NCBI GenBank assembly: GCA_022841745.1
Contig: JALHQW010000005.1
Coordinates: 1 to 64,000, forward strand
DNA length: 64,000 bases
Source of the DNA: Saprospiraceae bacterium
Lineage (GTDB): Bacteria > Bacteroidota > Bacteroidia > Chitinophagales > Saprospiraceae
Direction: 5' to 3'
Position numbers and translations under genes: made by a program
Notes under the pieces: model-generated
Told to the model about the DNA's origin: nothing
What the model saw: only the letters and a program-made list of their open reading frames with translations
Database searches by the model: none
Shown here: piece by piece, positions 125-63,166 of the stretch
Layout of the letters: each line of letters opens with the position of its first letter
Position numbering within the stretch: the stretch's first letter is position 1

Positions 125-182
125 AATTGCATGATTGTTATCGGAATACGTTCAACAATCAAGCAATCCAACAATTCAACAA
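125..182. repeat. Mirrored octamer array downstream of nrdJ
   Basis: Two 8-base units at 125-140 (AATTGCAT, then GATTGTTA) are followed by a 10-base spacer. Four units of the complementary type then run in perfect 8-base phase at 151-182, each ending in CAA (for example TTCAACAA). The array ends eight bases before the nrdJ stop codon. The same word family recurs at 29621-29756 and 58755-58845. It belongs to the class of 7/8-base word arrays found throughout this window. Confidence 0.8.
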
Positions 183-190
183 TTTTTATT

Positions 191-2797
191 TTACCCACAC
201 TTCGAGTGGCCACAGTTCTTGCACATAAGGCAACCTTCTTTGTAAATCAGGCCCTCCTTATCACCGCAAGATGGGCAGCTTTCCTTGTAAGCTTGGGTAC
301 CATCTGGCACGAATTTCTTGAGCGCACGCACCACCCCAGTTTTCCAGGTGTTGATATGCTCTTGGTCAACGTTCAGGCCGGAAACCATGCTGATGACATA
401 TTGTAGCGGCATCCCATGGCGAAGGGCACCTGAAATCAACTTGGCGTAGTTCCAATACTCTTTGTCGAAAGAGCGGGAGAGGCCCTCCATCGTCACTTTG
501 TAGCCGTACTTGTCGGCAAACTGGAAGTCGTAGCGATTGTTGCCTTCTTCGTCTTTCTCCTTGATGACCCACCCGTTTTCCACATAAGGAGGCAGCATGA
601 AAATATCTTCTGCACGGCCTGTGAAAATCTCATAAGGGTGTCCATCCAACAAGCCTACGAAGGCCATCCACTTTTCGTGATTGTTCTGGAAACGGATGAT
701 TTCAGTATCCAATTTTTTCGGACGCTTGGGTGCATCCGTAACATGGAATTGGTGTTGATTCTCAGCTGTTTGTTTATCTTCCTGCTTCTTGCCTTTGTCG
801 TCAGTGGAAACCAAAACGCCAGAACGTGAGCCGTCCCTATAAATGGTGCAACCCTTGCATCCTTCCTCCCAGGCAGTTTGGTAAATCTTTTTCACCATCT
901 CCACCGATGTTTCGTTGGGAATGTTGACCGTCACACTGATGCTGTGGTCAACCCACTTCTGGATGGCACCTTGCATTTTCACTTTCTGCACCCAGTCAAC
1001 GTCGTTGGCGGTGGCTTGGTGATAGGGCGACTTCTCTACCAATTTGTTCAATTCGTCGGTAGGCATGTGCTTGACAGTATCCACATCGTGGCCATTGGCA
1101 GCAAGCCAGTCGAGGAACTTGTGGTGAAAAACGTTGTACTCTTCCCAGTGGTCGCCAACTTCGTCCACAAAGCTGACCTTTACTTCCTTGTCATTCGGGT
1201 TCACCTTGCGGCGACGCTTGTACGTAATTAAGAAAGCAGGTTCGATGCCCGAGGTAGTCTGTGACATGAGGCTGGTAGTACCAGTCGGGGCAATTGTCAA
1301 CAAGGCGATATTGCGGCGACCGTATTTCACCATGTCTTCATACATCTTTGGGTCGGCTTCCTTCAAGCGAAGAATGAATGGGTTTTTTGCCTCCCTTGCT
1401 GCGTGAAAAATGGCGAATGCACCGCGCTCCTTTGCCATTTTCACAGAAGAACCATAGGCATTGATAGCCAAAGTTTTGTGTACTTCTACCGACAGCGCCA
1501 AAGCCTCGTCAGTACCGTATTTCAACCCAAGAGCTGCCAACATATCGCCTTCAGCAGTAATACCCACCCCGGTCCTGCGTCCCTCAACGCAAGTGCGGCG
1601 GATTTTCTGCCAGAGGCGCATTTCGGTTGCTTTGATGTCTTCTGCTTCTGGATCGTTCTCTATTTTCTCCAGGATTTTATCAATCTTTTCAATTTCGAGG
1701 TCAATGATATCATCCATCATGCGTTGGGCCATTTGCACATGGCTGCCAAACTTCTCGAAATTGAACTTGGCCTTCTTGGTGAACGGTGCCTCCACATAGC
1801 TGAATAGGTTGATGGCCAAAAGGCGGCAGCTATCGTAGGGGCAGAGTGGGATTTCACCGCAAGGATTCGTGGAAACGGTGCGGTAGCCAAGGTCCGCATA
1901 GCAATCTGGCACTGATTCCTTGATGATAGTGTCCCAGAAGAGAATGCCCGGCTCAGCGGATTTCCAGGCATTGTGGATGATTTTGTCCCAAAGTTTTGAT
2001 GCGTCTATGGTTTTCTTGTAAGTTGGATTGCTGGAATCAATGGGGAATTGTTGGTGGTACTCTTTACCAGCGACTGCGGCTTTCATGAAATCATCGTCAA
2101 TCCGGACAGATACGTTGGCACCCGTCACTTTGCCTGACTCCATTTTAGCATCTATAAAATCCTCAGCATCAGGGTGTTTGACAGAAACTGACAACATCAA
2201 AGCACCACGACGGCCATCTTGGGCCACTTCACGGGTACTGTTTGAATAGCGCTCCATGAACGGCACGAGTCCTGTCGAGGATAAAGCACTGTTTAGCACT
2301 GGGCTGCCTTTCGGACGGATGTGTGAAAGGTCGTGCCCTACCCCACCCCGGCGCTTCATCAGTTGCACCTGTTCTTCATCGGCCCGTATGATGCCACCAT
2401 ACGAGTCCGCACCACTCCCAATCACAAAACAATTGGACAAGGACGAAACTTGCAGGTTGTTCCCGATTCCAGACATTGGGCTGCCTTGGGGAATGATGTA
2501 TTTGAAATCTTGAAGCAATTCCAACAAGGTCTCATAAGGAATGGGATTGGGGTATTTCTGCTCAATCCGGTAAAGTTCCGAGGCAATGCGAACGTGCATT
2601 TCGGCAGGGCTTTTTTCGTAGATATTGCCTTTGGAGTCTTTCAGGGCGTACTTGTTAACCCATACATTGGCAGCCAACTCGTCTCCTTTGAAATACGCTG
2701 TTGCTGCTTGCAATGCCTCCTTGAATGAATAAATTTTTGGCTTGGCTTCTACCCTGTTCTTTGCAGGGGATTTTCTTTTTAGCGTTAAGGTCTCCAT
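191..2797 (-). CDS. nrdJ: Adenosylcobalamin-dependent (class II) ribonucleotide reductase
   Basis: Reduces ribonucleotides to deoxyribonucleotides in the cytosol using a cobalamin-generated thiyl radical, so no separate radical subunit is needed. The 868-residue protein has the class II layout. The NPCGE motif holds the predicted thiyl Cys313, with Asn311 and Glu315. Cys123 (SNCFV) and Cys324, eleven residues after the radical Cys, fit the redox pair. The C-terminus ends in a Cys-rich zinc-ribbon-like tail (CPSC, then CLMCKNCG). An upstream in-frame ATG would add 17 residues with no family resemblance, so the start at METLTLKRK is preferred. A hairpin lies about 90 bases upstream. No B12 riboswitch was recognised, and no activator or other nrd gene is adjacent. 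The family is confident; the assignment of individual cysteines comes from family knowledge. Confidence 0.96.
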   Translation of the reverse strand: METLTLKRKSPAKNRVEAKPKIYSFKEALQAATAYFKGDELAANVWVNKYALKDSKGNIYEKSPAEMHVRIASELYRIEQKYPNPIPYETLLELLQDFKYIIPQGSPMSGIGNNLQVSSLSNCFVIGSGADSYGGIIRADEEQVQLMKRRGGVGHDLSHIRPKGSPVLNSALSSTGLVPFMERYSNSTREVAQDGRRGALMLSVSVKHPDAEDFIDAKMESGKVTGANVSVRIDDDFMKAAVAGKEYHQQFPIDSSNPTYKKTIDASKLWDKIIHNAWKSAEPGILFWDTIIKESVPDCYADLGYRTVSTNPCGEIPLCPYDSCRLLAINLFSYVEAPFTKKAKFNFEKFGSHVQMAQRMMDDIIDLEIEKIDKILEKIENDPEAEDIKATEMRLWQKIRRTCVEGRRTGVGITAEGDMLAALGLKYGTDEALALSVEVHKTLAINAYGSSVKMAKERGAFAIFHAAREAKNPFILRLKEADPKMYEDMVKYGRRNIALLTIAPTGTTSLMSQTTSGIEPAFLITYKRRRKVNPNDKEVKVSFVDEVGDHWEEYNVFHHKFLDWLAANGHDVDTVKHMPTDELNKLVEKSPYHQATANDVDWVQKVKMQGAIQKWVDHSISVTVNIPNETSVEMVKKIYQTAWEEGCKGCTIYRDGSRSGVLVSTDDKGKKQEDKQTAENQHQFHVTDAPKRPKKLDTEIIRFQNNHEKWMAFVGLLDGHPYEIFTGRAEDIFMLPPYVENGWVIKEKDEEGNNRYDFQFADKYGYKVTMEGLSRSFDKEYWNYAKLISGALRHGMPLQYVISMVSGLNVDQEHINTWKTGVVRALKKFVPDGTQAYKESCPSCGDKEGLIYKEGCLMCKNCGHSKCG

Positions 2798-2884
2798 GAT
2801 TTTTGAACAAAAAAGATTATAGTGTAACACGTTGATGTACTCAACCAAGCCTTATCTAACTAGAAGCTGTTTTTTAGCACAAGC

Positions 2885-2919
2885 TTGCACCTGTCCAAAA
2901 TTTGAACGGACAGGTGCAA
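2885..2919 (-). promoter_or_regulatory. Leader hairpin upstream of nrdJ
   Basis: Perfect 12-base arms (2885-2896 and 2908-2919, TTGCACCTGTCC and its complement) enclose an 11-base loop. On the minus strand the hairpin sits about 90 bases before the nrdJ start, followed by an A-rich stretch rather than a T-run. It could be an attenuator, an operator or an mRNA-stability element. The perfect pairing is seen; the role is inferred. Confidence 0.5.
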
Positions 2920-3107
2920 AGCCAATATCGAAATCCAGTGCTAGTATCAGTAAGTGGTTGAATTACCAAAAAGGTTGGTCTGCCATCCTTGCGGCTGGCA
3001 AGTCGCCCCCCATTTTTAATCACATCATTTGGACATTAGTGATTATCTCATGTATGCGGTAATAACAGCACGAAAGTAGTGCCTCATTTGCGTTTTAAAA
3101 TCGTGAG

Positions 3108-11983: not shown

Positions 11984-14900
11984 ATGCAAACACCGTACAC
12001 AATTGCCATTCCGGCATCAGACGAAAACGCCCGTTTTTGTCGCAACGTAACCAAGAGTTTCCTGCTCATTTTCTCGCTGCTGTTGCTTACAAACTTTTTG
12101 CTGGCTCAAAACTGTAGCCTGGTACCCAATACGCTTCCGGGGTATATCTATATGGGAGAACACAATGGCAGCAAGTATTTCTGCTCAAGTACGAATAACA
12201 ACACATGGGCCACCGCCAAGGCAGCAGCTGCTGCAGCAGGTGGTCACCTTGTCATTATCAACAACTCAGCGGAAAACACCTTCATAAAGAGTGGTATAAT
12301 GTCTTCAACCGTGTGGTTGGGATATACCGATGAAGCGACGGAAGGCAGTTTCAAATGGGTAAATGGCTCAACGGCCACCTATACCAATTGGGGAACTGGC
12401 GAACCAAACAACACAAGCCCTGGTGGCGGGGAAGCAGATTATGTTGTCCTTCAAAAATCCGATGGTAAATGGCTGGACAGGAACGGTTCTAACCAAAATG
12501 AATTCGTAATTGAAATCCCTTGCCCCAGCGACCCATGCCAAGTCAACAATTTTGCAATTGTTTGTGAAAAACGCATAAACAATGGCGCTTGGACTAACCT
12601 GAACGATTGCTTCGTTTCAGAATGCCCAGGCAGCAAAGTGGTCTTGAGCGTGCACCCAAACGGCTACCCAACTACTTGGACTGGCCCGAACGGCTTCACC
12701 GCCAATACCAACGACATCTTGGTTTCCAACAACGTGAAACTCATCAACGCTGGCGTTTACACGGCCACCGTGAACGTCAATGGCTGCATTAAATCGAAGT
12801 CAATTACCCTTGAAGTTAGGGACACTGACGGCGACAACGTCTGCAATGACAACGACTGCCAACCTAACAACCCGGCTTTCCCAGCAACGCCAGGTTCTTC
12901 TTGCAACGATGGCAATCCCAATACCATCAACGACAAGGTAACAGCGAATGGCTGTGGCTGTGCAGGTACGCCTACTACCATCGTTACAGGCGGAGAATGT
13001 GTAGATTGTGATGCAAGCATGGCTGTGAAGTTCATTAGCTGCCAGTGCGTAGAAATAAGCGCTTGCAAAGAGCTTTCAAATGTGGTGATTGCAACCGCCA
13101 ATGGCGTACATGTTAAGTACGACAACCTATCGGGCTATACGGGCAATTTCTGCTCTACCAACGGTACAGAAATCGTAAAAGTCTGGGTGAAGGCTGGCTG
13201 TTTCGATAGTGGGGACGGCCCAGGGTATGGCAGGCGTTTTGTCAATCCACTCGATTGTTCAGTTATTGCCAATTGTGGCTCGCTTGGAGGAGATACAGAT
13301 GGCGATGGTGTTTGCAACAATGTAGATTGCCAACCAACCAATCCGAACCTCCCTGCTGCTCCTGGAACCGCCTGCAATGATGGCAATTCAAATACTACCA
13401 ACGATGTAATTTTAGCAGATGGCTGCTCTTGCGCTGGTACCGTGCCCGACCCATGCGCCAACCTTGGTGGTGATACAGATGGTGATGGTGTTTGCAACCT
13501 GAATGATTGCCAACCCACCAATAATTTCTATCCAGCCATCCCATTCATACCTTGCGACGATTACAACCCGAACACCGTGAACGATGCTGTGACTGCTGAT
13601 GGCTGCGGCTGCGCTGGCATTCCAGCCGACCCATGTGCCAACCTCGGCGGCGATACTGATGGTGATGGCGTTTGTAACCTGAATGATTGCCAACCTACCA
13701 ATAATTTCTACCCAGCCACCCCATTTACACCTTGTGACGACAACAATCCAAACACCGTAAACGACGCTGTGACTGCCGATGGCTGCAGCTGTGCGGGTAC
13801 ACCAGTTCAGCCAGTTTGCGACAATGTACAGATGGGTGGCAATATCGGCTTCGGCCCGAACTGCGCTACCTCGGCCATTTCTTGCAACGGCAACAAACCA
13901 CTTATTGGCGACTGCATTTCACCAATCGGCGGCACAGGTGCCTTGGAAATCATTTGGTTGAAGGCCACCAACAACCCACAATGCCTACCTCCTACTACCA
14001 CGGCTGCTGAGATTATGGCTGGCCTTGACCCATTCTGGAGAGTGATTCAGGGTGCAACCGGATTGTCGCTCGACCCTGGCCCCATCACCGAGCGCACTTG
14101 CTTCCTGCGCTGCACACGCAGGGTTGGCTGCGTGACCTTTATCGAGTCCAATATCATCTTCATTGATGTTGACCCAGACTGCGGGACAGGTAATACACCG
14201 GACTGCGACAATATTAATATCACTACCGCAATTGGTTCCGTTACGGTTAGTAGTTTGGATGGAGCGCCTATCACCTCTCTACAACTATTTGACGCCATAT
14301 TCCAACCCGTTTTCACCTGCTTTGGCGATTGCGGAGCGACCAAGACTGTAGATAACCTGCCTGCCGGCATTTATTACGTCAGTGCAAAATACTATACAGC
14401 TGCCTATGCGCAGATTTGCGAGAAATTCCAATTGGTAACAGTGGGTGGATGTGCAGACGCTGACAACGATGGAACCTGCGACGATGCAGACTGCCAGCCG
14501 GGCAACCCGGCATTCCCAGCAACGCCTGGTTCTACCTGCAACGATGGCAATGCAAACACCGACAACGACAAGGTGACTGCCAATGGCTGCGGCTGCGCTG
14601 GAACCCCGATTGACCCGTGTGCTAACCTCGGCGGCGATACCGACGGCGATGGCGTCTGCAACCAGAACGACTGCCAGCCGAACAACTCGGCGTTCCCAGC
14701 AACGCCAGGTTCACCTTGTAACGATGGCAATGCAAACACCAACAACGACAAGGTGACTGCCAATGGCTGCGGCTGTGCGGGAACGCCTGTCGGGCCAAAC
14801 TGCGCCTTAGTGCCAGATAACCTGAACGGCTTGATTCTGATGGGCACTTTCAATGGCAGCAAATACTATTGCTCCAGCACCAATACCAATACTTGGTCGC

Positions 14901-23200: not shown

Positions 23201-23655
23201 AGCAATTGGACAAAATAAAGACCTTTGAGGAGACGCCGCTGACCATCAAAAAGCAGTTGTTTTTGGTGAAAAACAGCGACCGTGGAGAGGTGCTTACACC
23301 CATTACGGAAGGTAGCAAGCTAAAAGTCGGCGACAAGGTGAAAGTACGTATCGAACTGCGGGTGGACCGGGACATGGAATACGTCCACATGAAGGACATG
23401 CGGGCCAGCAGCTTTGAGCCGATGAACGTGCTTAGCAGCTACAAATGGCAAGGCGGCCTCGGCTACTACGAAAGCACCCGTGACGCCGCCACGAACTTCT
23501 TCTTCACATGGCTGCCCAAGGGTACGCACGTATTCGAGTACCCGCTTCGGGTGACGTACAACGGCGATTTTTCAAATGGCATTACGACCATTCAGAGCAT
23601 GTATGCGCCGGAGTTCACGAGCCATTCGGCGGGGATAAGGGTGAAGGTGGATTAA
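17281..23655 (+). CDS. Bacterial alpha-2-macroglobulin-like protein with thioester motif
   Basis: A 2124-residue exported protein with an N-terminal hydrophobic segment (IVLTIALLFSMAAVALTVF) acting as signal or anchor. The N-terminal half has helical and MG-type beta domains. The MG2-type region (RAIYRPGQTVFFKG) and bait-region flank (residues about 1250-1310, glycine- and alanine-rich) precede the complement-like half. The thioester motif CNEQ is intact, with the Cys near residue 1551, so covalent trapping of proteases is possible. Bacterial family members guard the periplasm and in proteobacteria are often linked to penicillin-binding protein 1C. No such neighbour is seen here. An array of 8-base words directly follows the stop codon. 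Confidence 0.92.
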   Translation: MNYQTIFAKNKIVLTIALLFSMAAVALTVFTKLPAAEPTPPIIKCGDDGDFNSTNMNFDYDTAWKEIDSLEQNGLPKSALEKTEVLLELARKEANAPQTVKALIYRGKYQSQLEEEGLAMAINRLSEEAAKADYPVKPILQSMLAEMYSNYLDQNLYRFQNRTETVDFKPEDFKTWSITQLTEKSAELYRASLTDPRLKSTDIGDFKILLTEGKNDEGLRPTLFDFLAHRAIDYFMNERSHITQPAYKFYIDDDRAFAPAAQFVDWKIETKDSASQKLQTLLLLQDLLRFRLSEKRLKSPSLLDADLKRLAFVHQNAVLEGKDAAFLAALENLKKQYDGTPGVAEVIFQMASYYQQKGAEFQNPPFGAENKDERKDYFKKAQSLCFEAVRSYAGSFGAKQCEVLLKELEAASLSMQVEQVNLPNQPFLAKIEYKNTKQAWLKIIRLDEKRVKAIEEVQYEPNAQERTLQLLQTWPSAKTWSSNLPDDGDLRQHTTEVKVDNLPNGKYAILLADNQAFNAEKAAVSYAIANVSKLGYWERNDNAGTSNLVIFDRETGAPLKGVKVELYYHRYDESDRRYRWDKKGGVLESNAEGIVNFPDADERRPQYKAVLCTAKDTLDTGDQFYRYKNHDNRRPYDQTLFFLDRAIYRPGQTVFFKGIALNFDVKRMPKIIKNEKVTVTFLDANYQKVSDLQLKTNEYGTFSGQFTAPRGGLLGQMQIQSSIGGQSQHFRVEEYKRPKFEVSFEPVKGSYRLNEEVAVTGKAIAYAGNNIDGAKVSYRVVREVRFPWMPWWYWRYFPMRGETMEIANGEATTDAEGKFEIKFTAVPDRSVPKEQKPEFSYTVYADVTDITGETQSGETSVSVGFISMRADVTANGTSLDKAQINLDSLRKFDLSTNNLSGQFEPAKGALKLELLKAPSQTYLNRYWDKPDRHTMTEAEFKKAFPQFAYGNEDEQQNWPVERSIFSENWDTEKSKEVVIPKIKLNAGWYVLTLTTQDKFGEKIEVKKYFSGYDLSDKALPTPTEMLHLLTKQNGASANAFEPNEVAALWFGTTEKSLNVLLEVNRENITLLRKWLNVKDLQGELVTIKEEHRGNLGYSFSYARQNRSHNQQGSINVPWSNKELTIEYGTFRDKLLPGQQEEWVLKIKGPKGDKVAAEMVAGMYDASLDAFAANNWSMNVWPSTWSNIRYSSNSFQAVGANWLQSPNQPGIENDYRQYRGLNWFNWYMNDYGYGGGRMYKSMARAGAREEIMMDAVAAPAMASPEGAMAKNGGAPPPKPQSTAYGEESEAQGGDGGGKPTKPATDLSQVKVRTNLNETVFFYPHLMTDAEGNVVIKFTMNEALTKWKFLGLATTPELQIGTTSKEIVTQKDLMVVPNPPRFFREYDEIEFTAKVVNLSKEVLNGEYKLELKNALTGDNVFPLNGTNPAMALLLAPQRLVDLKPGESRRLAWRFKVPDVADVPVIEHTVIATAGNFSDAERSAAPVLSNRMLVTETLPLPVRGGQTKNFVLNSLKTNNSTTLRHQGMTLEFTQNPVWYAVQALPYLMEYPYDCNEQIFSRYYANSLATSVANSHPKIKTVFDRWRNYEPQALKSNLNKNQELKTALLEETPWVLAAQSEEQQKQNIALLFDLNRMAYEQEAALKKLQERQLSNGGWGWFPGDRDNWYITQYIVEGLGHLQRLGVQDVTSNPMTVQMVESAVRYCDARMVEEYEQLERMVREGKAKWEDDHLGYMATHYLYMRSFFLENQSAQASKSGNFQTKQALSMDDKAKNVHNYYIGQAEKYWLNKGMYSEGMLALAMDRSGKSATAQKIVKSLKERSLNNDELGMYWKYPTGWWWYQAPIETQALLIEVFNDVAADAKSVDDLKVWLLKNKQTTHWKTTKATASAVYALLTSGDNWLLEDQPVSIQFGEKNSPNAAARSAAIAQAQKGAEAGTGYFKYRFDGRDVTNDMANVTVTNPNKVVAWGALYWQYFEQLDKIKTFEETPLTIKKQLFLVKNSDRGEVLTPITEGSKLKVGDKVKVRIELRVDRDMEYVHMKDMRASSFEPMNVLSSYKWQGGLGYYESTRDAATNFFFTWLPKGTHVFEYPLRVTYNGDFSNGITTIQSMYAPEFTSHSAGIRVKVD

Positions 23656-23709
23656 GGTATAGAGGTATGGAGGTATGAAGGTGTGGCCCCGCACACCTCC
23701 ATACCTCCA
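23656..23709. repeat. Mirrored octamer array between two stop codons
   Basis: Three and a half units of GGTATGGA type (23656-23683), a short spacer and two complementary units (from 23692) fill the space between the stop codons of two convergent genes exactly. The word is shared with the array at 50711-50786, 27 kb away. It may serve as a bidirectional transcript end. Confidence 0.85.
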
Positions 23710-24126
23710 TTACTGCTTCTCTAAAAACAGTTCTTCCAAATGCTCGTCGTTGTCGTCCCGGAGCTTAATAGACGAGTTGGTCATTTCATCCAGCAACCAA
23801 TCGTCGGTCATCTCGTCGAGGGCATCGGAGCCGGTGATATTGATGGTCAGTTTGGAGCTACTGCTGTTTTTTGACCAAGTACCATTAAAGGTATTGCTCC
23901 CATTTGTTGCAACTAAATTGCCACTTGATTCGAACTCGAACGAATAGCCGCTGAATTTGTGGGTTTCTTCCTTGTCCTTGTCCCAAAACCAAGTGACTTT
24001 CCAGCTTCCGGCTGGCGTGGTGCTGTTGTTGCTGTTGGAATTGCTTGGCGAGGCATCGTCGTCCAAATTGCCGCAGGCAGTGAACAGAACACTAATGGTG
24101 AAGGCGAAAAAAATCAGTTTCTTCAT
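23710..24126 (-). CDS. Putative lipocalin-like lipoprotein
   Basis: A 138-residue lipoprotein. The signal peptide ends in the lipobox LFTAC, with lipidation expected at Cys18. A low-complexity Ser/Asn linker follows, then a beta-rich domain (SWKVTWFWDKD, YSFEFESSGN, FNGTWS) with the pattern of small lipocalin-like proteins common in Bacteroidota. It is presumably anchored to the outer membrane or periplasmic face; the ligand is unknown. It is convergent with the macroglobulin gene, and the 3' end abuts a word array. Confidence 0.78.
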   Translation of the reverse strand: MKKLIFFAFTISVLFTACGNLDDDASPSNSNSNNSTTPAGSWKVTWFWDKDKEETHKFSGYSFEFESSGNLVATNGSNTFNGTWSKNSSSSKLTINITGSDALDEMTDDWLLDEMTNSSIKLRDDNDEHLEELFLEKQ

Positions 24127-24347: not shown

Positions 24348-24382
24348 CCACCGTCAACCGTCCACCGTAAGCCGTCAACCGT
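24348..24382 (+). repeat. Heptamer array in the leader of the YfhO-family gene
   Basis: Five perfect 7-base units, each NNNCCGT with the variable triplet CCA, CAA, CCA, AAG, CAA. The array ends six bases before the start codon at 24389, so it would be in the ribosome-binding region of the mRNA. No complementary arm was found. Confidence 0.85.
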
Positions 24383-24388
24383 ATCGAA

Positions 24389-28830: not shown

Positions 28831-28951
28831 GACAAGTCTGAGTTCCTGCCACTGACTGCCCACTGCACACTGTCAAACTGCAAGTTCCATAATTGTTACT
28901 GACAAGTCGGAGTTCCTGCCACTGACTGCCCACTGCACACTGTCGAACTGC
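28831..28951. repeat. 51-bp direct repeat made of short words
   Basis: 28831-28881 and 28901-28951 are identical except at two positions. Within each copy ACTG recurs at 4, 7, 7 and 8-base steps, so the unit is itself a degenerate array of the 7/8-base type. It ends seven bases before the stop codon of the aldolase gene. No complementary arm is present. Confidence 0.8.
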
Positions 28952-28958: not shown

Positions 28959-29615
28959 TTAACCATTCCCCTTCCGGTAATCGGCCAAAAACTGTTCCAG
29001 CCCTAAATCAGTCAACGGGTGCTTGAACATGCCCAAGATTGCGCTGAGCGGACAGGTGCAAACATCGGCCCCGTTCTTTGCAGCCTCTACGATATGCCTT
29101 GAACTGCGGATGCTTGCCGCCAAAATCTGGGTGTCAAAGCCTTGGATAGCATAAATCTCGGCCATTTCCTTGATGAGCAACATGCCGTCCCAATTGGAGT
29201 CGTCAATGCGGCCAATGAACGGTGAAACGTAAGTTGCCCCAGCTTTCGCTGCCAAAATGGCCTGCGCAGAAGAGAATACCAAAGTACAGTTGGTGGCTAT
29301 TTCGTTGTCGTAGAAATGGCGAATGGCCTTCACGCCGTCCCTCGTCATGGGCACTTTCACCACAATGTTCTCTGCCAGACTGGCCAGGTGTGTCCCTTCT
29401 TTAACCATGCCAGCAAAGTCGGTTGCAATCACCTCTGCGCTGACATCGCCATCCACGATTTCGCAGATTTTCTGGTAATGCTTTTCGATATTGGCCTGGC
29501 CCGTGATGCCTTCCTTGGCCATCAGGCTTGGATTGGTGGTCACACCATCGAGGATGCCTAGCTCACTGGCTTCTTTGATATGGTCGAGGTTTGCGGTATC
29601 AATGAAGAATTTCAT
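28959..29615 (-). CDS. fsa: Transaldolase-like fructose-6-phosphate aldolase
   Basis: A 218-residue cytosolic enzyme of the small transaldolase/fructose-6-phosphate aldolase family. The start MKFFIDTANLDHI, the GVTTNPSL phosphate-site motif and NIVVKVPMT, carrying the Schiff-base lysine, are all present. It transfers or cleaves three-carbon units in sugar phosphate metabolism. Whether it acts as a transaldolase or as an aldolase cannot be told from sequence alone. A -7 box is seen upstream at 29694-29701. Word arrays flank it on both sides. Confidence 0.94.
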   Translation of the reverse strand: MKFFIDTANLDHIKEASELGILDGVTTNPSLMAKEGITGQANIEKHYQKICEIVDGDVSAEVIATDFAGMVKEGTHLASLAENIVVKVPMTRDGVKAIRHFYDNEIATNCTLVFSSAQAILAAKAGATYVSPFIGRIDDSNWDGMLLIKEMAEIYAIQGFDTQILAASIRSSRHIVEAAKNGADVCTCPLSAILGMFKHPLTDLGLEQFLADYRKGNG

Positions 29616-32894: not shown

Positions 32895-33854
32895 CTACGC
32901 AGCCTTGAACTTCTTCATAGCTGCCGTCAGCCTTGGCACCACCTCAAAGAGGTCGCCAACAACGCCATAGTCAGCTGCTTTGAAAAAAGGTGCCTCTGGG
33001 TCTTTGTTGATGACCACGATGACCTTGGACTGGTTGACGCCTGCCAAATGTTGAATGGCACCTGAAATGCCTATGGCGATGTAAAGGTTCGGGCGAATGG
33101 CCACCCCTGTTTGTCCGACATGCTCGTGGTGGGGCCGCCAATCGGCGTCCGCAACGGGGCGGCTGCAAGCGGTGGTAGCTCCCATGACCTGCGCCAACTC
33201 CTCCACCATGCCCCAATTCTCAGGGCCTTTCATGCCACGGCCAGCAGAAACTACGGTGGTGGCTTCGGGCAATGGCACGATGCCTTCTTCCCGCTTCACG
33301 CTGAGCACTTTCACCTTGCTGGCTGGTGCGGCTATTTCCAAGGTTTCAACGGCAACCTCATTTCCATCGGCCTTCAAAGGGATTTCGTTCCCTGCCAAGG
33401 CAATGAGCTTTATTGGTGAACTGATATCATAGGTCGCAATGGCCTTACCTGAGTAAACGCCTTTGGTCACCTTGAAACCGCCACCAGAAATATCGGGCAG
33501 CGATTTTGCGCCAGCCACCGAACCAGCGTTCAAGCGGGCAGCCAAGCGACCAAGCAACGACTTGCCGGTGGAAGTATGCGAAAGCACCACCACCGTGGCA
33601 CCTAATTTTTCGGTTGCTTGCGCAATGGCCGATGCAAAGACCTGGCTATCGAAATTGCCGAAGGCCTCCCCTTGGACATTGTACACCTTGCTGGCGCCAT
33701 AAACGCCCAATTGTCCGGCGTTTTGGATATTACCCAGCGTTAGTGCAACACATTGGCTGCCAAGCAATTGCGCTGTTTGCGCACCATAAGTTACGGCTTC
33801 CAGCGCCGCTTTTTTGAGTTGGCCATTGACGGCCTCTGCGAATACTAAAACCAT
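32895..33854 (-). CDS. etfA: Electron transfer flavoprotein alpha subunit
   Basis: A 319-residue FAD-binding subunit of the soluble ETF heterodimer, which carries electrons from acyl-CoA and other dehydrogenases to the quinone pool. The C-terminal FAD domain is clear: GRGMKGPENW, ACSRPVADADW, VGQTGVAIRP and YIAIGISGAIQHLAG. The N-terminal domain VLVFAEAVNGQLKKAA is typical. It is co-transcribed behind etfB; the spacer is filled by a mirrored heptamer array. No ETF-quinone oxidoreductase or acyl-CoA dehydrogenase is adjacent. Confidence 0.96.
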   Translation of the reverse strand: MVLVFAEAVNGQLKKAALEAVTYGAQTAQLLGSQCVALTLGNIQNAGQLGVYGASKVYNVQGEAFGNFDSQVFASAIAQATEKLGATVVVLSHTSTGKSLLGRLAARLNAGSVAGAKSLPDISGGGFKVTKGVYSGKAIATYDISSPIKLIALAGNEIPLKADGNEVAVETLEIAAPASKVKVLSVKREEGIVPLPEATTVVSAGRGMKGPENWGMVEELAQVMGATTACSRPVADADWRPHHEHVGQTGVAIRPNLYIAIGISGAIQHLAGVNQSKVIVVINKDPEAPFFKAADYGVVGDLFEVVPRLTAAMKKFKAA

Positions 33855-33862
33855 TGGTAAAT

Positions 33863-33941
33863 CGTGATTCGTGACTCGTGATTCGTGATTAGTGAATCAT
33901 GACTGGGGTTGCCAATCACGAATCACCAATCACGAATCACT
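33863..33941. repeat. Mirrored heptamer array inside the etfBA operon
   Basis: Four clear units CGTGATT or CGTGACT (33863-33890) and two degenerate ones, a spacer, then four complementary AATCACN units (33914-33941). The array overlaps the etfB stop codon by two bases and ends eight bases before the etfA start codon, so it forms the whole intercistronic space. In the mRNA it would form a hairpin. The word is shared with 63093-63166. Confidence 0.9.
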
Positions 33942-34686: not shown

Positions 34687-34774
34687 AAGGAAAAAGAGAA
34701 AAGGAAAAAGGAAAAAGTAGCCTACGCAGCCGCCCAACCTTTTGACTTTTTACTTTGTACTTTTTACTTTTTTA
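34687..34774. repeat. Mirrored heptamer array in the etfB leader
   Basis: Four units of AAGGAAA type in 7-base phase (34687-34714), a spacer of about 25 bases, then five units of TTTTTAC type (34740-34774). The near end is six bases from the etfB start codon, so the array would be in the 5' leader and could pair with itself around the translation start. Confidence 0.85.
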
Positions 34775-35880: not shown

Positions 35881-35908
35881 AAGGATGAGGAATGATAAAT
35901 GATAAATA
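35881..35908 (+). repeat. Short heptamer array directly after a stop codon
   Basis: Four degenerate 7-base units with ATG recurring at 35885, 35892 and 35899, of ATAAATG type. It begins on the base after the stop codon of the preceding gene. No complementary arm. Confidence 0.6.
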
Positions 35909-49839: not shown

Positions 49840-49876
49840 CAAAAGGGTATGGCGTTTGCCATGCCCTTTTGTTTTT
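49840..49876 (+). terminator. Intrinsic terminator after the small lipoprotein
   Basis: Fourteen-base arms (49840-49853, 49858-49871; one G-T wobble) with loop GTTT and a following TTTTT. Confidence 0.88.
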
Positions 49877-50020
49877 CATGGCTGCATGGTTTCATGGCCG
49901 CATGGCTTTATGGCCGCATGGCTTTATGGCTTCATGGCCGCATGGTCTAATTATATGGAGTGCTGCCCACACATTGCCAACAATGAAGCAATGTAACAAT
50001 GGAGCCATGAAGCCATGAAT
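49877..50020. repeat. Longest mirrored octamer array
   Basis: Nine consecutive 8-base units with core ATGG run from 49877 to 49948 (for example CATGGCTT and CATGGCCG, preceded by C or T). After a 32-base spacer, five units with core AATG or CATG follow at 49981-50020, including CCATGAAG, the complement of CTTCATGG. Unit length is kept exactly while 2-4 positions vary. It begins at the end of a terminator and ends 46 bases before the DedA gene. Confidence 0.92.
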
Positions 50021-50065
50021 CCATTTCTCTACATTTGCCCCTCTTTTCATAAAACAGTTTCCTAG

Positions 50066-50710
50066 ATGGACTTAGTCATAGATTTCATCCTTCACACTGA
50101 CAAGTATCTCAACGACATTGTCGCTCAATACGGCATGTTGATTTACGCCGTGCTTTTCTTGGTCATTTTTGCTGAAACGGGCTTTGTCGTTACGCCTTTT
50201 TTGCCTGGTGACGGCTTCCTTTTTACTGTAGGCGTGATTGCCGGTACAACGGGTGGCGGCTTGAACCTCTGGCTGTCCATGGTGATTATGATCGTAGCAG
50301 CCATAGCGGGTAATTTGGTCAATTTTCATATTGGCAGGTATTTCAGTGCCAAGCTAAACGATGGGAAACAGCGCAAATGGCTCAATCCAAAATACCTAAG
50401 AGAAGGCCACGAGTTCTTTGAGAAGCACGGCCACCAAGCGGTCATCCTTAGCCGTTTCTTTCCCATTTTCCGCACCTTCGTCCCCTTTGTAGCAGGGCTT
50501 GCTTTGATGGACACCAAGAAATACACGCTTTACACCTTCATCGGAGGTATTTCATGGGTCATCCTACTCACCTTGGCGGGTTATTTCCTCGGCAGTTTCG
50601 AGTTTGTGAAGAAGAACATTTCTTTCATCGTGCTGGCTATCGTCGGCGTGTCGTTGATACCAGTATTTGCTGCCGCCTTGAAAAAATATTTGCAAAGCAA
50701 AAAGGTTTAG
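50066..50710 (+). CDS. DedA-family inner-membrane protein
   Basis: A 214-residue integral membrane protein of the DedA/SNARE-associated family. Characteristic motifs are FAETGFVVTPFLPGDG near the N-terminus and SRFFPIFRTFVPFVAG in the re-entrant/helix region, carrying the conserved arginines. Several membrane helices follow, with a basic C-terminus. Family members are proton-driven transporters implicated in undecaprenyl-phosphate or lipid flipping and in membrane homeostasis. The substrate here is not known. The stop codon is followed immediately by a word array. Confidence 0.93.
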   Translation: MDLVIDFILHTDKYLNDIVAQYGMLIYAVLFLVIFAETGFVVTPFLPGDGFLFTVGVIAGTTGGGLNLWLSMVIMIVAAIAGNLVNFHIGRYFSAKLNDGKQRKWLNPKYLREGHEFFEKHGHQAVILSRFFPIFRTFVPFVAGLALMDTKKYTLYTFIGGISWVILLTLAGYFLGSFEFVKKNISFIVLAIVGVSLIPVFAAALKKYLQSKKV

Positions 50711-50786
50711 AGGTATGGAGGTATGAGGTATGGAGGTATGTGGGGCGACATCCCTCATACCTCCATACCTCTGAGCCTCCATACCT
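50711..50786. repeat. Mirrored 7/8-base array that runs into a coding region
   Basis: Four units of AGGTATG or AGGTATGG (50711-50740), a 15-base spacer and four complementary units, CCATACCT type (50756-50786). The array starts right after the DedA stop codon. The right arm forms the last ten codons of the convergent dehydrogenase gene, including its stop codon. The word is shared with 23656-23709. Confidence 0.9.
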
Positions 50787-51729
50787 CCAAAACCTTTTCC
50801 GCCAGTACCCTTGCATGTTTCTCCTTGCTCTCAAATGACCAGCCAGCGATGTGCGGTGAAAGCAGCACGTTATCCGCTTGGCAGAGGTAGTCAAAAGCAG
50901 GTGGCAGATGCTCCAATTTGAACTTGTCAAAAGAGGTCTCTTCGTACTCCAACACGTCCAAAGCAGCGCCCAGCACCTTGCCGGATTTCAGGTTTTCCAC
51001 CAAGTCAGCAGTATTCAATACCAAGCCCCTTGCCGTGTTGATGAGGTAGATGTTTTTTTTGAAATTCCGGAGAAAAGCATCGTTGATAAAACAATGGTTA
51101 TCAACGGAATAGGGTATGTGGGCACTCAGCACATCGGCTTCTTCAAAAAGTTGTTCCAAGCTGGCCTCGGCTGCAAATTCATCGCCGTACCCCTGCTTGA
51201 ATTTATCGTAAGCCAAGGTTTTTACCCCAAACCCCTGCAAGCGCTTGGCAAAGGAACAGCCCATATTTCCGTATCCCAAAATACCGACTGTTTTGCCCTT
51301 CAACTCTACGGCCCGGTTGGCTTCCCGTACCCATTGCCCGTTGCGCACCTGGCGGTCGGCACGGCTGAGGTTGTTCATCAGGCAAAGTAACATGCCAATG
51401 GCGTGCTCGGCGACCGTATCTTTGCTACCTTCGGGTGAAATCAGGACTTTGACGCCCATCGCCTCCGCCCACGCCACATCAATATGCTCCAAGCCAACAC
51501 CCTCCCTCGCCAAAAAGACGAGGTTGGTGCAATGCTCCAAAAAGCCTTTGTCAATGCTGAAACGGCTGCGCATGACGATGCCTTGGTACTCCCCTACTCT
51601 TGCCACAATTTCAGTTTTATGGCTCGCCGTGTCAGTATGGCACTCGAAACCATTCATTGTCAATTGGGTCTCCAAAAATGGATGTGCTTTGTCGAGGAAA
51701 AGGACTTTGCCCTTGCTTTTTTTGCTCAT
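50755..51729 (-). CDS. D-isomer 2-hydroxyacid dehydrogenase (phosphoglycerate dehydrogenase-like)
   Basis: A 324-residue NAD-dependent dehydrogenase. The Rossmann motif GILGYGNMGCSFAK, the substrate-domain signature REGVGLEHID and the TVAEHAIGMLL helix are typical of the SerA-like branch. INTARGLVLNTADL and the late PHIAGWSFES carry the conserved Arg and His catalytic residues. The likely role is serine biosynthesis or reduction of another 2-oxoacid. The last nine residues (VWRLRGMEV) are encoded by the word array and are unlikely to belong to the ancestral enzyme. It is monocistronic and converges on DedA. Confidence 0.92.
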   Translation of the reverse strand: MSKKSKGKVLFLDKAHPFLETQLTMNGFECHTDTASHKTEIVARVGEYQGIVMRSRFSIDKGFLEHCTNLVFLAREGVGLEHIDVAWAEAMGVKVLISPEGSKDTVAEHAIGMLLCLMNNLSRADRQVRNGQWVREANRAVELKGKTVGILGYGNMGCSFAKRLQGFGVKTLAYDKFKQGYGDEFAAEASLEQLFEEADVLSAHIPYSVDNHCFINDAFLRNFKKNIYLINTARGLVLNTADLVENLKSGKVLGAALDVLEYEETSFDKFKLEHLPPAFDYLCQADNVLLSPHIAGWSFESKEKHARVLAEKVLEVWRLRGMEV

Positions 51730-56299: not shown

Positions 56300-56300
56300 G

Positions 56301-56397: not shown

Positions 56398-58755
56398 ATG
56401 CCAAGGTTAAACTGCATAATCCTGTCCATTCTTGGGTTATTGCCATATTGGGGCTTTACCCAGCATAATTGCCACGCTACCCTTTTCGGGACAGTAACGG
56501 AAGAAGGCACGGAGGAACCAGTGCCATTTGCTGAAGTCTTCATCGTGCAAACCGGCCAAGGTGCCGTAACTGATGATAAAGGCCGTTTCGTGTTCACTGA
56601 ACTATGCGAAGGTGACTACACAGTTACTTGTCACCATATCGGATGCAGCCATCTTTCTTCGGAAATAAAAGTGGTGGGGGAAACGAACCTTTGCTTTCAC
56701 TTACAGCACGAATCGCTCAACTTGAGCGAGATAACGGTACATGCCAAGCCCATTGAATTGCGCAGCATGCAAGCTCAGCAAAGCCTTACAGGAGAGAAGC
56801 TTTCCGCTGTCAAAGGACAAACGCTTGGCGACTTGCTGAAAACGCTGCCCGGTGTCACCACCTTGAACACGGGTGGTAGCATTTCAAAACCAATTATACG
56901 TGGCTTGCACAGCAGCCGGGTGCTCATGCTCAACAACGGCGTTCGGCAGGAAGGGCAGCAATGGGGCAGTGAGCACGCCCCAGAGATTGACCCCTATATC
57001 GCCGACAAAGTGACCGTCGTGTATGGCGCAAATAGCGTCCGTTATGGTGCCGATGCGCTGGGCGGCGTAGTGGTAGTAGAACCACGGGCAATGCGAGGCG
57101 AACCCGGGATGGGTGGCGAGGCGAACCTGACTGCCTTCGGTAATGGGCGGGTCGGCGTGACATCAGCCATGGTGGAGGGCAAAATGAAGGGCAAATTGCC
57201 ATTATCAGGCCGGCTCCAAGGCACACTCAAGCGGGGCGGCGACCAACGCACACCTGATTATTTTTTGCAAAACACGGGCACCAAGGAAATCAACTACTCA
57301 GCAGCGATTGGACTGGAGCAGGAGCGATGGAACACTGAAGTATTCTTCAGCCAGTTCTTCACGGACATCGGTATTTATCGTGGCTCGCATATCGGCAACT
57401 TGACCGACCTCCAGCAAGCCATCGAGCAGGGGCGGCCAACGGACGACGGTTCGTTCAGTTACAAACTTGGCAGGCCAATGCAACGGGTGGCGCACTATCT
57501 TTTCAAGGCAAAAACGGCGCTAAAAACGGGAACAGCTGGTGCAATGACCTTGCAGTATGCCCGTCAGTTCAATCGCCGGGGCGAGTTCGATGCGCACAAA
57601 CGGTACGGCACATTGCCCAGCGAACTGGAGAACCCAGAGATGCTATTTGAAATCACCACACACACGCTCGACTTGGCTTGGGAGCACAAAAGCTGGCGAC
57701 ATTTCACCGGCAGCCTTGGCGCCCAGGGCATGGCACAGCGCAACACCACCGACCGAGGTGGTCTCATACCTGATTACGAGGGCCAAACGGCAGGCGTGTT
57801 TTGGGTGGAACGCTGGCGCAAATACCCGTTCCCCTTGGAGTTCGAGGCGGGTGTGAGGTACGATGTGCGCAGGATGGATGTCCAGAATCGGGGTAATGAG
57901 GTCATTGACAAGCAATTGAATTTCGACAACTTGTCAGGTACGCTTGGCATGGTCTATATCGTTGCGGAGCAATTTGACCTGAAGCTTCATTGGGGCTCGG
58001 CCTGGCGGGCACCGAATGTCAACGAGTTGTTCAGCGATGGGGTACACCATGGCTCGGCCAGTTACGAGAAGGGCCGAACTGACTTGAAGTCTGAGCGGGC
58101 CAACAATATCACACTGACCTTGGATTTTGACAATGCTCGCAATTGGAGCGCCAGTTTTTCCCTTTATCGCAATCTCATCCAAGACTTCATTTACCTGAAG
58201 CCACAGGACAAACCAGTGCTGACCATTCGAGGTGCCTTCCCAAGCTTCGCCTACGACCAAACAGACGCCCGACTCACGGGCTTCGATTGGAATTCGGCTT
58301 GGAATTTTGCCAAAAAATGGGAAGTCTCTTCAAGTGCCTCCCTCCTGAGGGCATGGAACAAAAAAGCCGATGATTGGCTGGTGCTAATGCCCGCCGACCG
58401 GTTCAACCTGGGTTTGACCTTTTCGCCAAAGGCGGAAAAAAGCAAGGATGAAACGGGCAATGCGCCCTACCTAAAAATGGGCATTGAGCGGGTGTTTGAA
58501 CAAACAAGGACGCCCGAAAACGTTGATTTTGCGCCAGCGCCAAATGCCTATACACTGGTCAACTTCGAGGCTGGAACGAGTTTTAGAGTTGGCAGTCGGC
58601 AGTCGGCAGTTGGCAGTCGGCAACCACCAATTCATCTTACGATAACCATCAACAACCTACTCAACTCCGCCTACCGGGACTACCTGAACCGCCTTCGCTA
58701 TTTTACACATGAGGCGGGCAGGAACGTGTCGGTTCGGCTTAAGTATTCATTTTAA
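56398..58755 (+). CDS. TonB-dependent outer-membrane receptor
   Basis: A 785-residue receptor. The start at 56398 gives a signal peptide (LNCIILSILGLLPYWGFT); a longer frame runs through the hairpin and is rejected. Order: carboxypeptidase-D-regulatory-like domain (about 25-110, GTVTEEGTEEPVPFAEV), plug (about 130-245, ending in YGADALGGVVVVEP) and a 22-strand-type barrel ending in VRLKYSF. Neighbouring His-rich protein and acidic lipoprotein suggest metal uptake, in the manner of ZnuD-like receptors. A heptamer array inserted near residues 731-742 (VGSRQSAVGSRQ) lies between late barrel strands. Confidence 0.93.
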   Translation: MPRLNCIILSILGLLPYWGFTQHNCHATLFGTVTEEGTEEPVPFAEVFIVQTGQGAVTDDKGRFVFTELCEGDYTVTCHHIGCSHLSSEIKVVGETNLCFHLQHESLNLSEITVHAKPIELRSMQAQQSLTGEKLSAVKGQTLGDLLKTLPGVTTLNTGGSISKPIIRGLHSSRVLMLNNGVRQEGQQWGSEHAPEIDPYIADKVTVVYGANSVRYGADALGGVVVVEPRAMRGEPGMGGEANLTAFGNGRVGVTSAMVEGKMKGKLPLSGRLQGTLKRGGDQRTPDYFLQNTGTKEINYSAAIGLEQERWNTEVFFSQFFTDIGIYRGSHIGNLTDLQQAIEQGRPTDDGSFSYKLGRPMQRVAHYLFKAKTALKTGTAGAMTLQYARQFNRRGEFDAHKRYGTLPSELENPEMLFEITTHTLDLAWEHKSWRHFTGSLGAQGMAQRNTTDRGGLIPDYEGQTAGVFWVERWRKYPFPLEFEAGVRYDVRRMDVQNRGNEVIDKQLNFDNLSGTLGMVYIVAEQFDLKLHWGSAWRAPNVNELFSDGVHHGSASYEKGRTDLKSERANNITLTLDFDNARNWSASFSLYRNLIQDFIYLKPQDKPVLTIRGAFPSFAYDQTDARLTGFDWNSAWNFAKKWEVSSSASLLRAWNKKADDWLVLMPADRFNLGLTFSPKAEKSKDETGNAPYLKMGIERVFEQTRTPENVDFAPAPNAYTLVNFEAGTSFRVGSRQSAVGSRQPPIHLTITINNLLNSAYRDYLNRLRYFTHEAGRNVSVRLKYSF
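58587..58621 (+). repeat. Heptamer array inside the receptor gene
   Basis: Five units of AGTYGGC (AGTTGGC or AGTCGGC) in 7-base phase, in frame with the receptor. It encodes Arg/Gln/Ser/Gly-rich residues between two late barrel strands. It is the only array in the window wholly inside a coding region. Confidence 0.9.
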
Positions 58756-58845
58756 TCGTTGAAATTGCTTGCTTGTTGAATTGCTGTTCTTCCACACCAA
58801 TATAACAATCAAGCAATTCAACAATCAAACAACTTAACAATGAAA
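58755..58845. repeat. Mirrored octamer array spanning stop to start
   Basis: Four units (AATTGCTT type) from 58755 to 58786, a 19-base spacer and five complementary units (CAATCAAG type) from 58806 to 58845 in 8-base phase. The first base belongs to the receptor stop codon, and the last unit contains the ATG of the lipoprotein gene. The array therefore forms the whole intercistronic region. The word is shared with 125-182 and 29621-29756. Confidence 0.88.
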
Positions 58846-61563: not shown

Positions 61564-61920
61564 ATGAACATCTTTGCAGCAAAACTGAGTTTCGACACTC
61601 AGTCCGAAGACCTACGTTCGGCCTTCGAAGAATTTGGCGAAGTTACTTCTGCCAGCGTTATCACTGATAAGTTCACCGGCAAATCCAAGGGCTTCGGCTT
61701 TGTGGAAATGGCCAACGACGAAGAGGCTCGCAAAGCCATCTCCGAACTCAACGAAAGCGAACTTGACGGTCGCACCATCGTTGTTAAAAAAGCTGAACCA
61801 AGGGAAGATCGTGGCGGTAGCGGCGGCGGCGGTGGAAACCGTGGCGGCGGCGGCGGGTTTAACCGTGGCGGTGGCGGCGGCGGATACAACCGTGGCGGCG
61901 GCGGCGGCGGACGCTATTAA
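61564..61920 (+). CDS. RRM RNA-binding protein with glycine-rich tail
   Basis: A 118-residue protein. A single RRM (residues 1-78) has RNP2 (NIFAAKLS) and RNP1 (KSKGFGFVEM). The tail of about 40 residues consists of GGG-(N/F/Y)-RG repeats encoded by GGC-rich DNA. It resembles the cold-induced RNA-binding proteins of cyanobacteria and Bacteroidota and likely acts in RNA folding or turnover. It has its own promoter, long leader and terminator. Confidence 0.95.
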   Translation: MNIFAAKLSFDTQSEDLRSAFEEFGEVTSASVITDKFTGKSKGFGFVEMANDEEARKAISELNESELDGRTIVVKKAEPREDRGGSGGGGGNRGGGGGFNRGGGGGGYNRGGGGGGRY

Positions 61921-62460: not shown

Positions 62461-62895
62461 TCAGTTTCCGCCATTCAACCCGCCATTGCTGTTAGGCCCC
62501 GATTCCTGCGTAGGTGGTGCTTTCACTTCGCCTTTGACGATAAGGGTATGCGTGTCCGGAGTCTCATTGGTAGTTAATGTTATCCACTTATTGAATGGGC
62601 CAACCCGATTGGTGTCGTAGGTTGCGTCAATATAGGCGGTCTCGCCCGGCATGATGGGTTCTTGAGGGTATGTGACTTTAACACAGGCACAAGAAGCTTT
62701 GCCCGATTTGATAATAAGTGGCTCGTTGCCCTGGTTGGTGAATTTGAACTTGTGTAGCCCATCAGCATTCTTGTCCATCATGCCAAAGTCATGCGTGGTT
62801 TTCTCAAAAGTCATGACTGGGCCATTGGTGTGTTGCGCTAAGGCAGCCATAGCGCCAAAGGCAAGGAAGCTGAAAATGAAAAAAAGCTGTTTCAT
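62461..62895 (-). CDS. DUF1573 exported protein
   Basis: A 144-residue protein with a signal peptide (LFFIFSFLAFGAMAALA, cleavage before QH) and one DUF1573 domain. TFEKTTHDFGMM opens it; FTNQGNEPLII and SCACVKVTYP, with a paired Cys-x-Cys, follow. The family is an Ig-like ASH/MSP-type fold, very common in Bacteroidota and of unknown function. The Gly/Asn-rich end is probably flexible. No clear promoter was found upstream. Confidence 0.9.
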   Translation of the reverse strand: MKQLFFIFSFLAFGAMAALAQHTNGPVMTFEKTTHDFGMMDKNADGLHKFKFTNQGNEPLIIKSGKASCACVKVTYPQEPIMPGETAYIDATYDTNRVGPFNKWITLTTNETPDTHTLIVKGEVKAPPTQESGPNSNGGLNGGN

Positions 62896-62935
62896 TGAAT
62901 GATAATTTTGTTGTTAAAAAATGATGTGACGCTGA

Positions 62936-62962
62936 AAAGGCTTGGCCTTCACCGAAGCCTTT
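62936..62962. terminator. Short hairpin
   Basis: AAAGGCTT (62936-62943) and its complement (62955-62962) lie upstream of the DUF1573 gene and could be a leader hairpin or a terminator of the following minus-strand gene. No T-run on either side, so assignment is weak. Confidence 0.3.
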
Positions 62963-63092
62963 CCAGTTGTTTATTTACGATGTCACAAAGGAGCAGGCTA
63001 AATTTGAAAACACCATTATTTATGGCGTTACAAAAGCGTTACAATGAAAAACTGGTGAGGTAAGCCACTGTATGTCAATGTACTAGCCCTAT

Positions 63093-63166
63093 GTGATTAG
63101 TGATTGGTGATTAGTGATTGGTAGGGCCGCTAATCACCAGTCACCAGTCACGAATCACCCATCACC
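63093..63166. repeat. Mirrored heptamer array next to the CAP gene
   Basis: Four units alternating GTGATTA and GTGATTG (63093-63120), an 11-base spacer and five complementary units of NATCACC type (63132-63166). It touches the stop codon of the CAP-domain gene. The word is shared with the array in the etfBA operon at 33863-33941. Confidence 0.92.

Follow-up and report, generated by a model that had tools for sequence, protein, structure and literature searches.

Many-word, mirrored heptamer and octamer arrays at gene ends in a Saprospiraceae genome: a possible Bacteroidota variant of the Xanthomonas and Nostoc intergenic heptamer repeats

Introduction

The short tandemly repeated repetitive (STRR) sequences of filamentous cyanobacteria are tandem heptamers, and repetitive extragenic palindromic (REP) sequences, bacterial interspersed mosaic elements (BIME) and intrinsic terminators are intergenic hairpins at gene ends, the REPs having a conserved palindrome and the terminators a U-tract. 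In this study, we undertook an analysis of arrays of short tandem words in a 64,000-nucleotide stretch of DNA from a Saprospiraceae bacterium (GenBank assembly GCA_022841745.1, contig JALHQW010000005.1, positions 1 to 64,000 of the forward strand), which is referred to as the window. We propose that the element in question is an intergenic minisatellite stem-loop, that is, a tandem 7- or 8-bp word, often with an inverted copy beyond a loop, which lies directly at gene ends. We put at about even the chance that the arrays represent a Bacteroidota version, with many words, of the heptamer repeats found between genes in Xanthomonas and Nostoc, and that they owe their form to slippage in 7- or 8-nt units together with template switching between the arms.

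A first-pass annotation of the window, made from the sequence alone, had likened its arrays to the cyanobacterial heptamers. The comparison is a fair one (200 kb of Trichormus plasmid A were found to carry seven period-7 arrays and a single mirrored pair that is clear and G-first), but a closer published parallel is provided by GGGAATC heptamers that occur in pairs in Xanthomonas (Rehm et al. 2015, PMC4692102). The part of that report drawn on here describes GGGAATC and GGGGA(C/T)T repeats in Xanthomonas and Nostoc, with 70 and 75 close inverted pairs in two xanthomonads, the G-rich form on the coding strand after stops and on the non-coding strand before starts, few copies in divergent gaps, and a gene context often kept between relatives (83% with the same place and the same word). 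The Saprospiraceae arrays resemble these repeats in that period 7 predominates, in being mostly intergenic, in their polarity and in forming inverted pairs. Unlike the Xanthomonas/Nostoc repeats, which in that account are essentially one quadruplex-capable G-tract word, they comprise 47 words at 95 sites, include both 7- and 8-mers and have a G content of 35%, and their words differ between relatives at one and the same gap.

A further heptamer, TAACTGA, occurs in tandem beside start codons with a patchy distribution in Beggiatoaceae, Cyanobacteria and five Bacteroidetes; in relatives that lack the repeats the gaps are shorter, and the repeats are direct apart from one "indirect" case in the main genome (MacGregor 2015, PMC4679880). 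As portrayed in the portion of that paper used here, the system has one word and no mirrored arms, whereas the arrays in this study are many-worded and mirrored, and TAACTGA was not among the listed words of the lexicon compiled from 846 kb of the 8.43-Mb assembly. Among long simple sequence repeats, heptanucleotides form the commonest class (Mrazek et al. 2007, cited in PMC4679880 and PMC4692102); as cited there, such repeats are defined by direct repetition alone, whereas mirrored arms are a feature of the arrays here. A literature search on Saprospiraceae and tandem repeats found no report, and no family reached its gathering score in an Rfam scan of the window.

Materials and Methods

Genome-wide counts refer to 846 kb of the genome's own DNA, out of a source assembly of 8.43 Mb, and the 846 kb were split by a rough home-made gene caller into 157 kb of intergenic and 689 kb of coding sequence. 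Tandem runs in the window were scored at periods 7, 8, 14, 15 and 16 (match +1, mismatch -1.5) against a null of 200 block-Markov copies of the window, and an array was called above chance at an expectation (E) below 0.1 per 64 kb. The strength of a mirror at the window loci is the number of reverse-complement ten-mers within 150 bp, and the strand given for a feature is the one that carries the G-rich form of its word. Relatives were sampled by an EtfB search of genome contigs, from which 80 loci (1.17 Mb), labelled Saprospiraceae or broader Bacteroidota, were kept. Array density was sampled in 15 genomes, comprising the own genome, four genus relatives and ten others (40 kb of each of the ten). 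A total of 88 distinct etfB-etfA gaps were obtained, of which the 57 with a length of 60-350 bp were used for the array count, and eleven pairs of loci were aligned for the comparison of close relatives. Genomes and loci are referred to, where necessary, by handles beginning with G and L, respectively.

Abundance, period and distribution of the arrays

The arrays occur far above chance, are intergenic and polar, and are patchy between genera. Of the fourteen tandem arrays that had been annotated in the window, twelve exceeded the Markov null with E < 0.1 per 64 kb, and those at 28831 (E 5.6) and 35881 (E 0.46) did not. With a stricter score, seven period-7 and two period-8 arrays were found in the window and none in ten Markov copies. 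Genome-wide, 140 arrays were identified, 96 of them in intergenic DNA, 43 in DNA called coding and one mixed. The intergenic arrays at periods 4 to 13 numbered 1, 0, 0, 51, 23, 2, 4, 0, 1 and 0, respectively, compared to 0-2 in Markov copies; in the relatives, periods 7, 8, 9 and 10 were represented by 79, 45, 19 and 9 arrays and the other periods from 4 to 13 by at most 9 each (Markov 0-2). Array density was 13.7 per 100 kb in the own genome and 8.4, 9.6, 18.3 and 23.7 in the genus relatives. Eight of the ten other genomes had no array in their 40 kb, one had three (control one) and one had a single array.

The annotation had offered a shuffled-genome control as a means of refuting the family, and the near-zero number of arrays in Markov copies favours it instead. 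Chance, low complexity or assembly artefact would suit the two window loci that did not rise above the null; as an explanation of the arrays as a whole it is scarcely credible, given those controls and a transaldolase-gap word that is identical in four species with separate assemblies.

Mirroring, polarity and gene context

A mirrored partner within 250 bp was found for 66 of 163 arrays, compared to 8 when partners were shuffled. The G-rich strand is oriented toward the loop in transcribed gaps, a rule that is not clear for divergent gaps: arrays with a mirror only downstream were G-rich in 30 cases and C-rich in 2, and for a mirror only upstream the numbers were 4 and 26, respectively. With the coding strand as reference, arrays within 30 bp after a stop codon were G-rich 43 times and C-rich 8 times, whereas those within 30 bp before a start codon were C-rich 27 times and G-rich once. 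In windows free of arrays, G-rich and C-rich cases were balanced after stops (44% to 48%), whereas C-rich ones prevailed before starts (23% to 71%); part of the effect at starts is thus background. However, the polarity is also present in convergent gaps (G 21 versus C 3, and 14 to 0 among mirrored arrays), and the rule is therefore not explained by start codons alone.

Sorted by gene orientation, arrays were borne in the own genome by 18 of 70 gaps between convergent genes, 57 of 293 between co-directional genes and 10 of 91 between divergent genes, and in the relatives by 26 of 80, 38 of 206 and 8 of 83, respectively. Of the 85 own gaps bearing arrays, 40 have a mirrored partner. The placement at gene boundaries proposed for the window arrays holds for most of them, with the exception of the array at 58587, which lies within an open frame, and that at 50756-50789, which terminates one.

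Turnover of words at orthologous gaps

At some orthologous gaps arrays recur with different words and with arms that still pair. In the etfB-etfA gap, arrays were present in 36 of 57 sequences (0 after shuffling) versus 72 of 369 other gaps of the same loci, an enrichment with a Fisher p of 6e-11 in a sample whose species are not independent and whose gap lengths are not matched. The word in this gap is GTGATTC in the own genome, ATTGTTGG in G004 and G011, ATTGCGG in G008, ATTTCGG in G012 and GTGATTG in G001, with many others farther out. Among 34 non-redundant etf gaps, the mean energy of pairing of the first half was -35.2 kcal with its own second half and -16.8 with the halves of other species; the corresponding values for array-free gaps were -16.8 and -10.3. 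The G-C skew drops from the first to the second half in all 34, as is partly expected ahead of a start codon. The view of the annotation that the family is defined by its architecture and not by its sequence is thus borne out by the etf gap, in which the arrangement is kept across species, the words differ and the arms pair.

Site conservation is uneven, being high at the etf gap and lower elsewhere. Among 39 same-genus orthologous gap pairs, which derive from few own gaps, arrays were found in both members of 10, in the own genome only in 13, in neither in 16 and in the relative only in none. The gap after the purine nucleoside phosphorylase gene, examined by eye, contains GTGATTC in the own genome, an AGGAATG-type array in G006 (89% protein identity), a GTGATT hairpin in G001 and a GGAAATTAG-type hairpin in G012, all of which precede one common downstream sequence, and several genus members show no array there.

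Differences were also evident between close relatives. The etf gap of L052, L047 and L035 (87-91% aligned identity) is empty, filled by a GTTGAGAA hairpin and filled by a GGTTCCA hairpin, respectively, and a neighbouring gap of these loci contains the related words ATGAAAA, ATGAGAG and ATGATGA, changed in both arms. The word differs at three gaps between L020 and L024, and the C-arm is uniform in L044 and mixed in L041. At three sites where a filled state was compared with an empty one, the difference was a replacement of some tens of bases, and no target-site duplication was seen by eye. One array hairpin of L020 extends inward as a long unique perfect stem, GTGTCGGTGCTGTACACCTGGCTT, and the inverted repeat there is therefore not confined to the words.

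Possibly, the arrays are selected RNA stem-loops of a REP- or BIME-like kind, in which a hairpin protects or insulates mRNA ends, any pairing word suffices and words turn over neutrally. The co-variation of the arms across species, the etf-gap enrichment, the excess in convergent over divergent gaps and the folds with z below -3 in 23 of 61 etf gaps are all consistent with such selection. However, the sense strand was not the preferred one in terms of stability (the sense strand was more stable in 13 and the antisense strand in 19 etf gaps, with 13 versus 26 in own gaps), and there was no excess of U-tracts, as runs of at least five T were found in 10 of 57 etf gaps versus a background of 17.6%, a difference from terminators. 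In addition, eight of ten related genomes were array-free in 40 kb, the mla gap lacks arrays in related genera and about half of the array-bearing gaps are without a mirrored partner. We consider this explanation unlikely, and the suggestion that the arrays are RNA hairpins at transcript ends, while matched by the convergent-gap enrichment, is not supported by the T-tract and strand results. Intrinsic terminators were rejected on the T counts, and selection on the sense RNA through tolerance of G-U pairs was rejected as the sense strand is not favoured.

Proposed mechanism

Our preferred reading, a many-word variant of the Xanthomonas/Nostoc repeats shaped by slippage and template switching, would involve two processes. 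Replication slippage in one-unit steps would cause arrays to grow, shrink and become homogenised, and template switching between inverted arms would make the second arm and maintain complementarity while the word drifts; slippage would thereby account for changes of unit and for homogeneity, and template switching for concordant arms. In favour of this reading we count the period spectrum, the mirrors and their polarity, the pairing energies at the etf gap, the empty and two-word states of that gap in close relatives, the words that drift in both arms and the homogenised C-arm of L044. As stated in the parts of the sources drawn on here, template switching between inverted repeats is recognisable by arm homogenisation and spacer inversion (PMC8604942) and has been documented to create and maintain hairpins (PMC8794818), and a link has been drawn between the preference for 7 and the stretch of DNA that the polymerase holds (Mrazek 2007, cited in PMC4679880 and PMC4692102). 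The G-strand words of the arrays are 35% G, 30% T, 25% A and 9% C, and such a C-poor, three-letter strand may leave an arm without structure of its own and hence prone to slip. Position and polarity may depend on transcription, whether through a tolerance of gene ends for insertions or through its exposure there of a G-rich non-template strand.

Loss of the hairpin nuclease SbcCD was another candidate, but 11 of the 14 members of the genus had an SbcD above the cut-off and none was detected in the array-poor genomes G031 and G032, which is the opposite of what such a loss predicts.

Hairpins that appear, vanish and change word at fixed places in relatives that are ~90% identical represent a dense natural experiment on the birth of inverted repeats and the pairing of their arms. 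As the identical polarity has been published for Xanthomonas and Nostoc, the puzzle of the bacterial preference for 7-nt repeats becomes a comparative test. Co-variation of arms is usually held to prove that an RNA is functional; in the present case it may arise by mutation, which underscores the need for caution in covariation-based RNA discovery.

Shared words and other results against the preferred reading

Several of our results weigh against slippage and local template switching as the origin of the arrays, among them those on the words themselves. Words are drawn from a lexicon that is partly common to the genus. With arms merged, 47 words were distinguished across 95 period-7/8 sites in the 846 kb, and exactly the same word was found in 133 of 4465 site pairs, whereas shuffling of the letters within units gave 5.2 such pairs on average and 11 at most. 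This sharing disposes of the earlier claim of a private word for each locus, as does the window itself, in which GTGATT is common to 33863 and 63093, GAGGTATG to 23656 and 50711, and ATTGTT/AACAAT to 125, 29621 and 58755. The surroundings of same-word arrays are not shared: loops scored at least 24 in 3 and outer flanks in 1 of 160 same-word pairs, versus 1 and 0 of 270 different-word pairs. Slippage and local switching do not put unrelated words jointly into both arms, nor do they explain how one word comes to be at many sites while its loop and flanks do not.

The remaining difficulties concern position, polarity and pairing. Arrays were found in 1 of 22 gaps of other genera at the mla and inositol-phosphate-synthase positions, and a clear array was seen by eye at the dehydrogenase gap in 0 of 11 genus relatives. 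Divergent gaps have no polarity (7 C, 6 G), and in the three copies of the AAATCATA word family the order is reversed. The own partner ranked first in just 14 of 34 etf gaps. A loop inversion between L019 and L025 is suggestive, being clear by eye and weak when scored (the inverted match was reached by 1.5% and the forward match by 9% of shuffles).

Matches at another place in the 846 kb were found for 99 of the 140 arrays, a figure that takes in coding repeats, and the most frequent words are AATCCGC (12 sites) and AAGGATTG (7 sites). A word of the own lexicon was identified at 25 of 54 sites of the four genus relatives, with 1.6 expected, and at 7 of 93 sites in 73 further loci not individually checked for genus, with 1.9 expected. 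Beside AATCCGC arrays of the own genome there is also a small palindrome of REP-like type, CCCGAGGTGTCGGGAC (C1:152360-152440, C1:158280-158350, C3:18700-18860 and C3:24070-24140).

Dispersal of mobile elements resembling REPs or miniature inverted-repeat transposable elements (MITEs), with the arrays as their ends, could in principle distribute words. The three AAATCATA elements, which are alike over ~100 bp, and three AATCCGC arrays with a common adjacent stretch, GTCCCGACACC, both exceptions to the unshared surroundings, are what would be expected of such elements. Since most words have no shared loop or flank, and no target-site duplication was seen by eye at the three sites examined, we regard this origin as very unlikely, and dispersal of whole elements is refuted for most words.

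Sharing of words without sharing of context is accounted for neither by slippage and switching nor by RNA selection, and a process that copies words in trans therefore has to be considered. In one form, each genome would have a stock of words and a stock of sites, and some activity would write a word at gene ends, as a tandem run and in each of the two arms; in a related form, a genus-level lexicon would be combined with gene-end sites, and copying in trans would rewrite a site with the new word alone, tandem and mirrored, leaving its surroundings behind. The excess of same-word pairs, the own-lexicon words in relatives, the unshared loops and flanks, the abrupt word swaps among relatives and the sharpness of unit sizes at 7 and 8 all point in this direction. 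Nevertheless, ectopic copying between arrays could yield equal sharing, and no enzyme was found, with the distribution of the candidate families tested failing to match the arrays and offering nothing to the dedicated copying enzyme that had been suggested. A reverse transcriptase as the writer of words was rejected, as RVT_1 was found in 18 of 40 relatives and in none of the array-rich genomes G004, G008, G011 and G012. Nor did Y1 transposases, the RAYT type associated with REP elements, gain support: matches occurred in 33 of 40 genomes without fitting array density, with only weak ones in array-rich G004 and five in array-poor G032. We judge the genus-lexicon form to be rather improbable, and the genome-pool form a shade more doubtful still.

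Individual arrays and other features of the window

Of the eight loci described as mirrored, seven have clear mirrors with 9-25 reverse-complement ten-mers (23656, 29621, 33863, 49877, 50711, 58755 and 63093), and the mirror at 125 is weak (3). The mirror at 34687, which had been called a weaker match, is indeed moderate (6).

Several of the mirrored arrays are located in gaps with recognisable neighbours. The convergent gap 23655/23710 contains a G-arm of the GAGGTATG word (23655-23685, plus strand; 21 ten-mers) and its partner C-arm ACCTCCAT (23695-23710, minus). A second G-arm with the GAGGTATG word (50710-50743, plus) begins at the stop of a VTT-domain gene, also in a convergent gap, and the C-arm (50756-50789, minus) forms the last codons of a 2-hydroxyacid dehydrogenase frame. 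The array at 50755-50789 encodes the C-terminal residues EVWRLRGMEV of that protein, and orthologues align only to about residue 313-319. Between the transaldolase gene and a DUF1549/DUF1553 gene there is a G-arm with a ATTGTTGG-type word (29611-29659, plus) and its partner C-arm AACAATCA (29727-29756, minus). The own etfB-etfA gap contains a GTGATTC G-arm (33853-33902, plus) and an AATCACG C-arm (33914-33940, minus), and the divergent gap upstream of etfB contains a first arm AAGGAAA (34687-34717, plus) and a second arm CTTTTTA (34739-34772, minus).

The other mirrored loci comprise a G-arm of CATGGCTG/TTTCATGG with periods 8 and 16 (49874-49945, plus), whose second arm is AAGCCATG (49979-50024, no strand assigned); a C-arm of AACAATCA/AACAACTC just before the gene at 58840 (58798-58845, minus), with a G-arm and 16 ten-mers upstream; and a GTGATTA/GTGATTG G-arm (63093-63122, plus) with a TCACCAG/AATCACC C-arm as its partner (63134-63167, minus). 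The GTGATTA word at 63093-63119 is the heptanucleotide cited from Helicobacter pylori in the part of PMC4692102 drawn on here. At the start of the window, the period-8 array AACAATC. (156-184, minus; E 0.045) has a short, weak partner upstream.

Single arrays were found at 24348-24383 (CCACCGTCAACCGT, minus; E 0.01, no mirror), in the divergent gap before the gene at 24389, and at 32761-32800 (GATTTCA, no strand assigned; E 0.065), where a 19-mer is present seven times in the genome. The AGTCGGC array at 58587-58622 (plus) is in frame within the open frame 56398-58755, the C-terminal part of whose product, we presume, resembles a TonB-dependent receptor. The short ATGATAA array at 35885-35907 (plus), which is that of locus 35881, is not above chance by itself. 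At 28831, the weak period-7 array ACTGCAC (28855-28882, minus; best run 28855-28872) forms part of a longer direct repeat of ~45-50 bases, GACAAGTC.GAGTTCCTGCCACTGACTGCCCACTGCACACTGTC, which is present in two copies at 28831-28945 in the gap before the transaldolase gene.

Repeats of other kinds were also noted in the window. Two 180-bp coding repeats that are 84% alike are located at 13418-13786, and a GGC-rich, glycine-type repeat (61810-61910) lies within the small open frame 61564-61920, with a similar stretch elsewhere in the own genome at C1:234462-234551.

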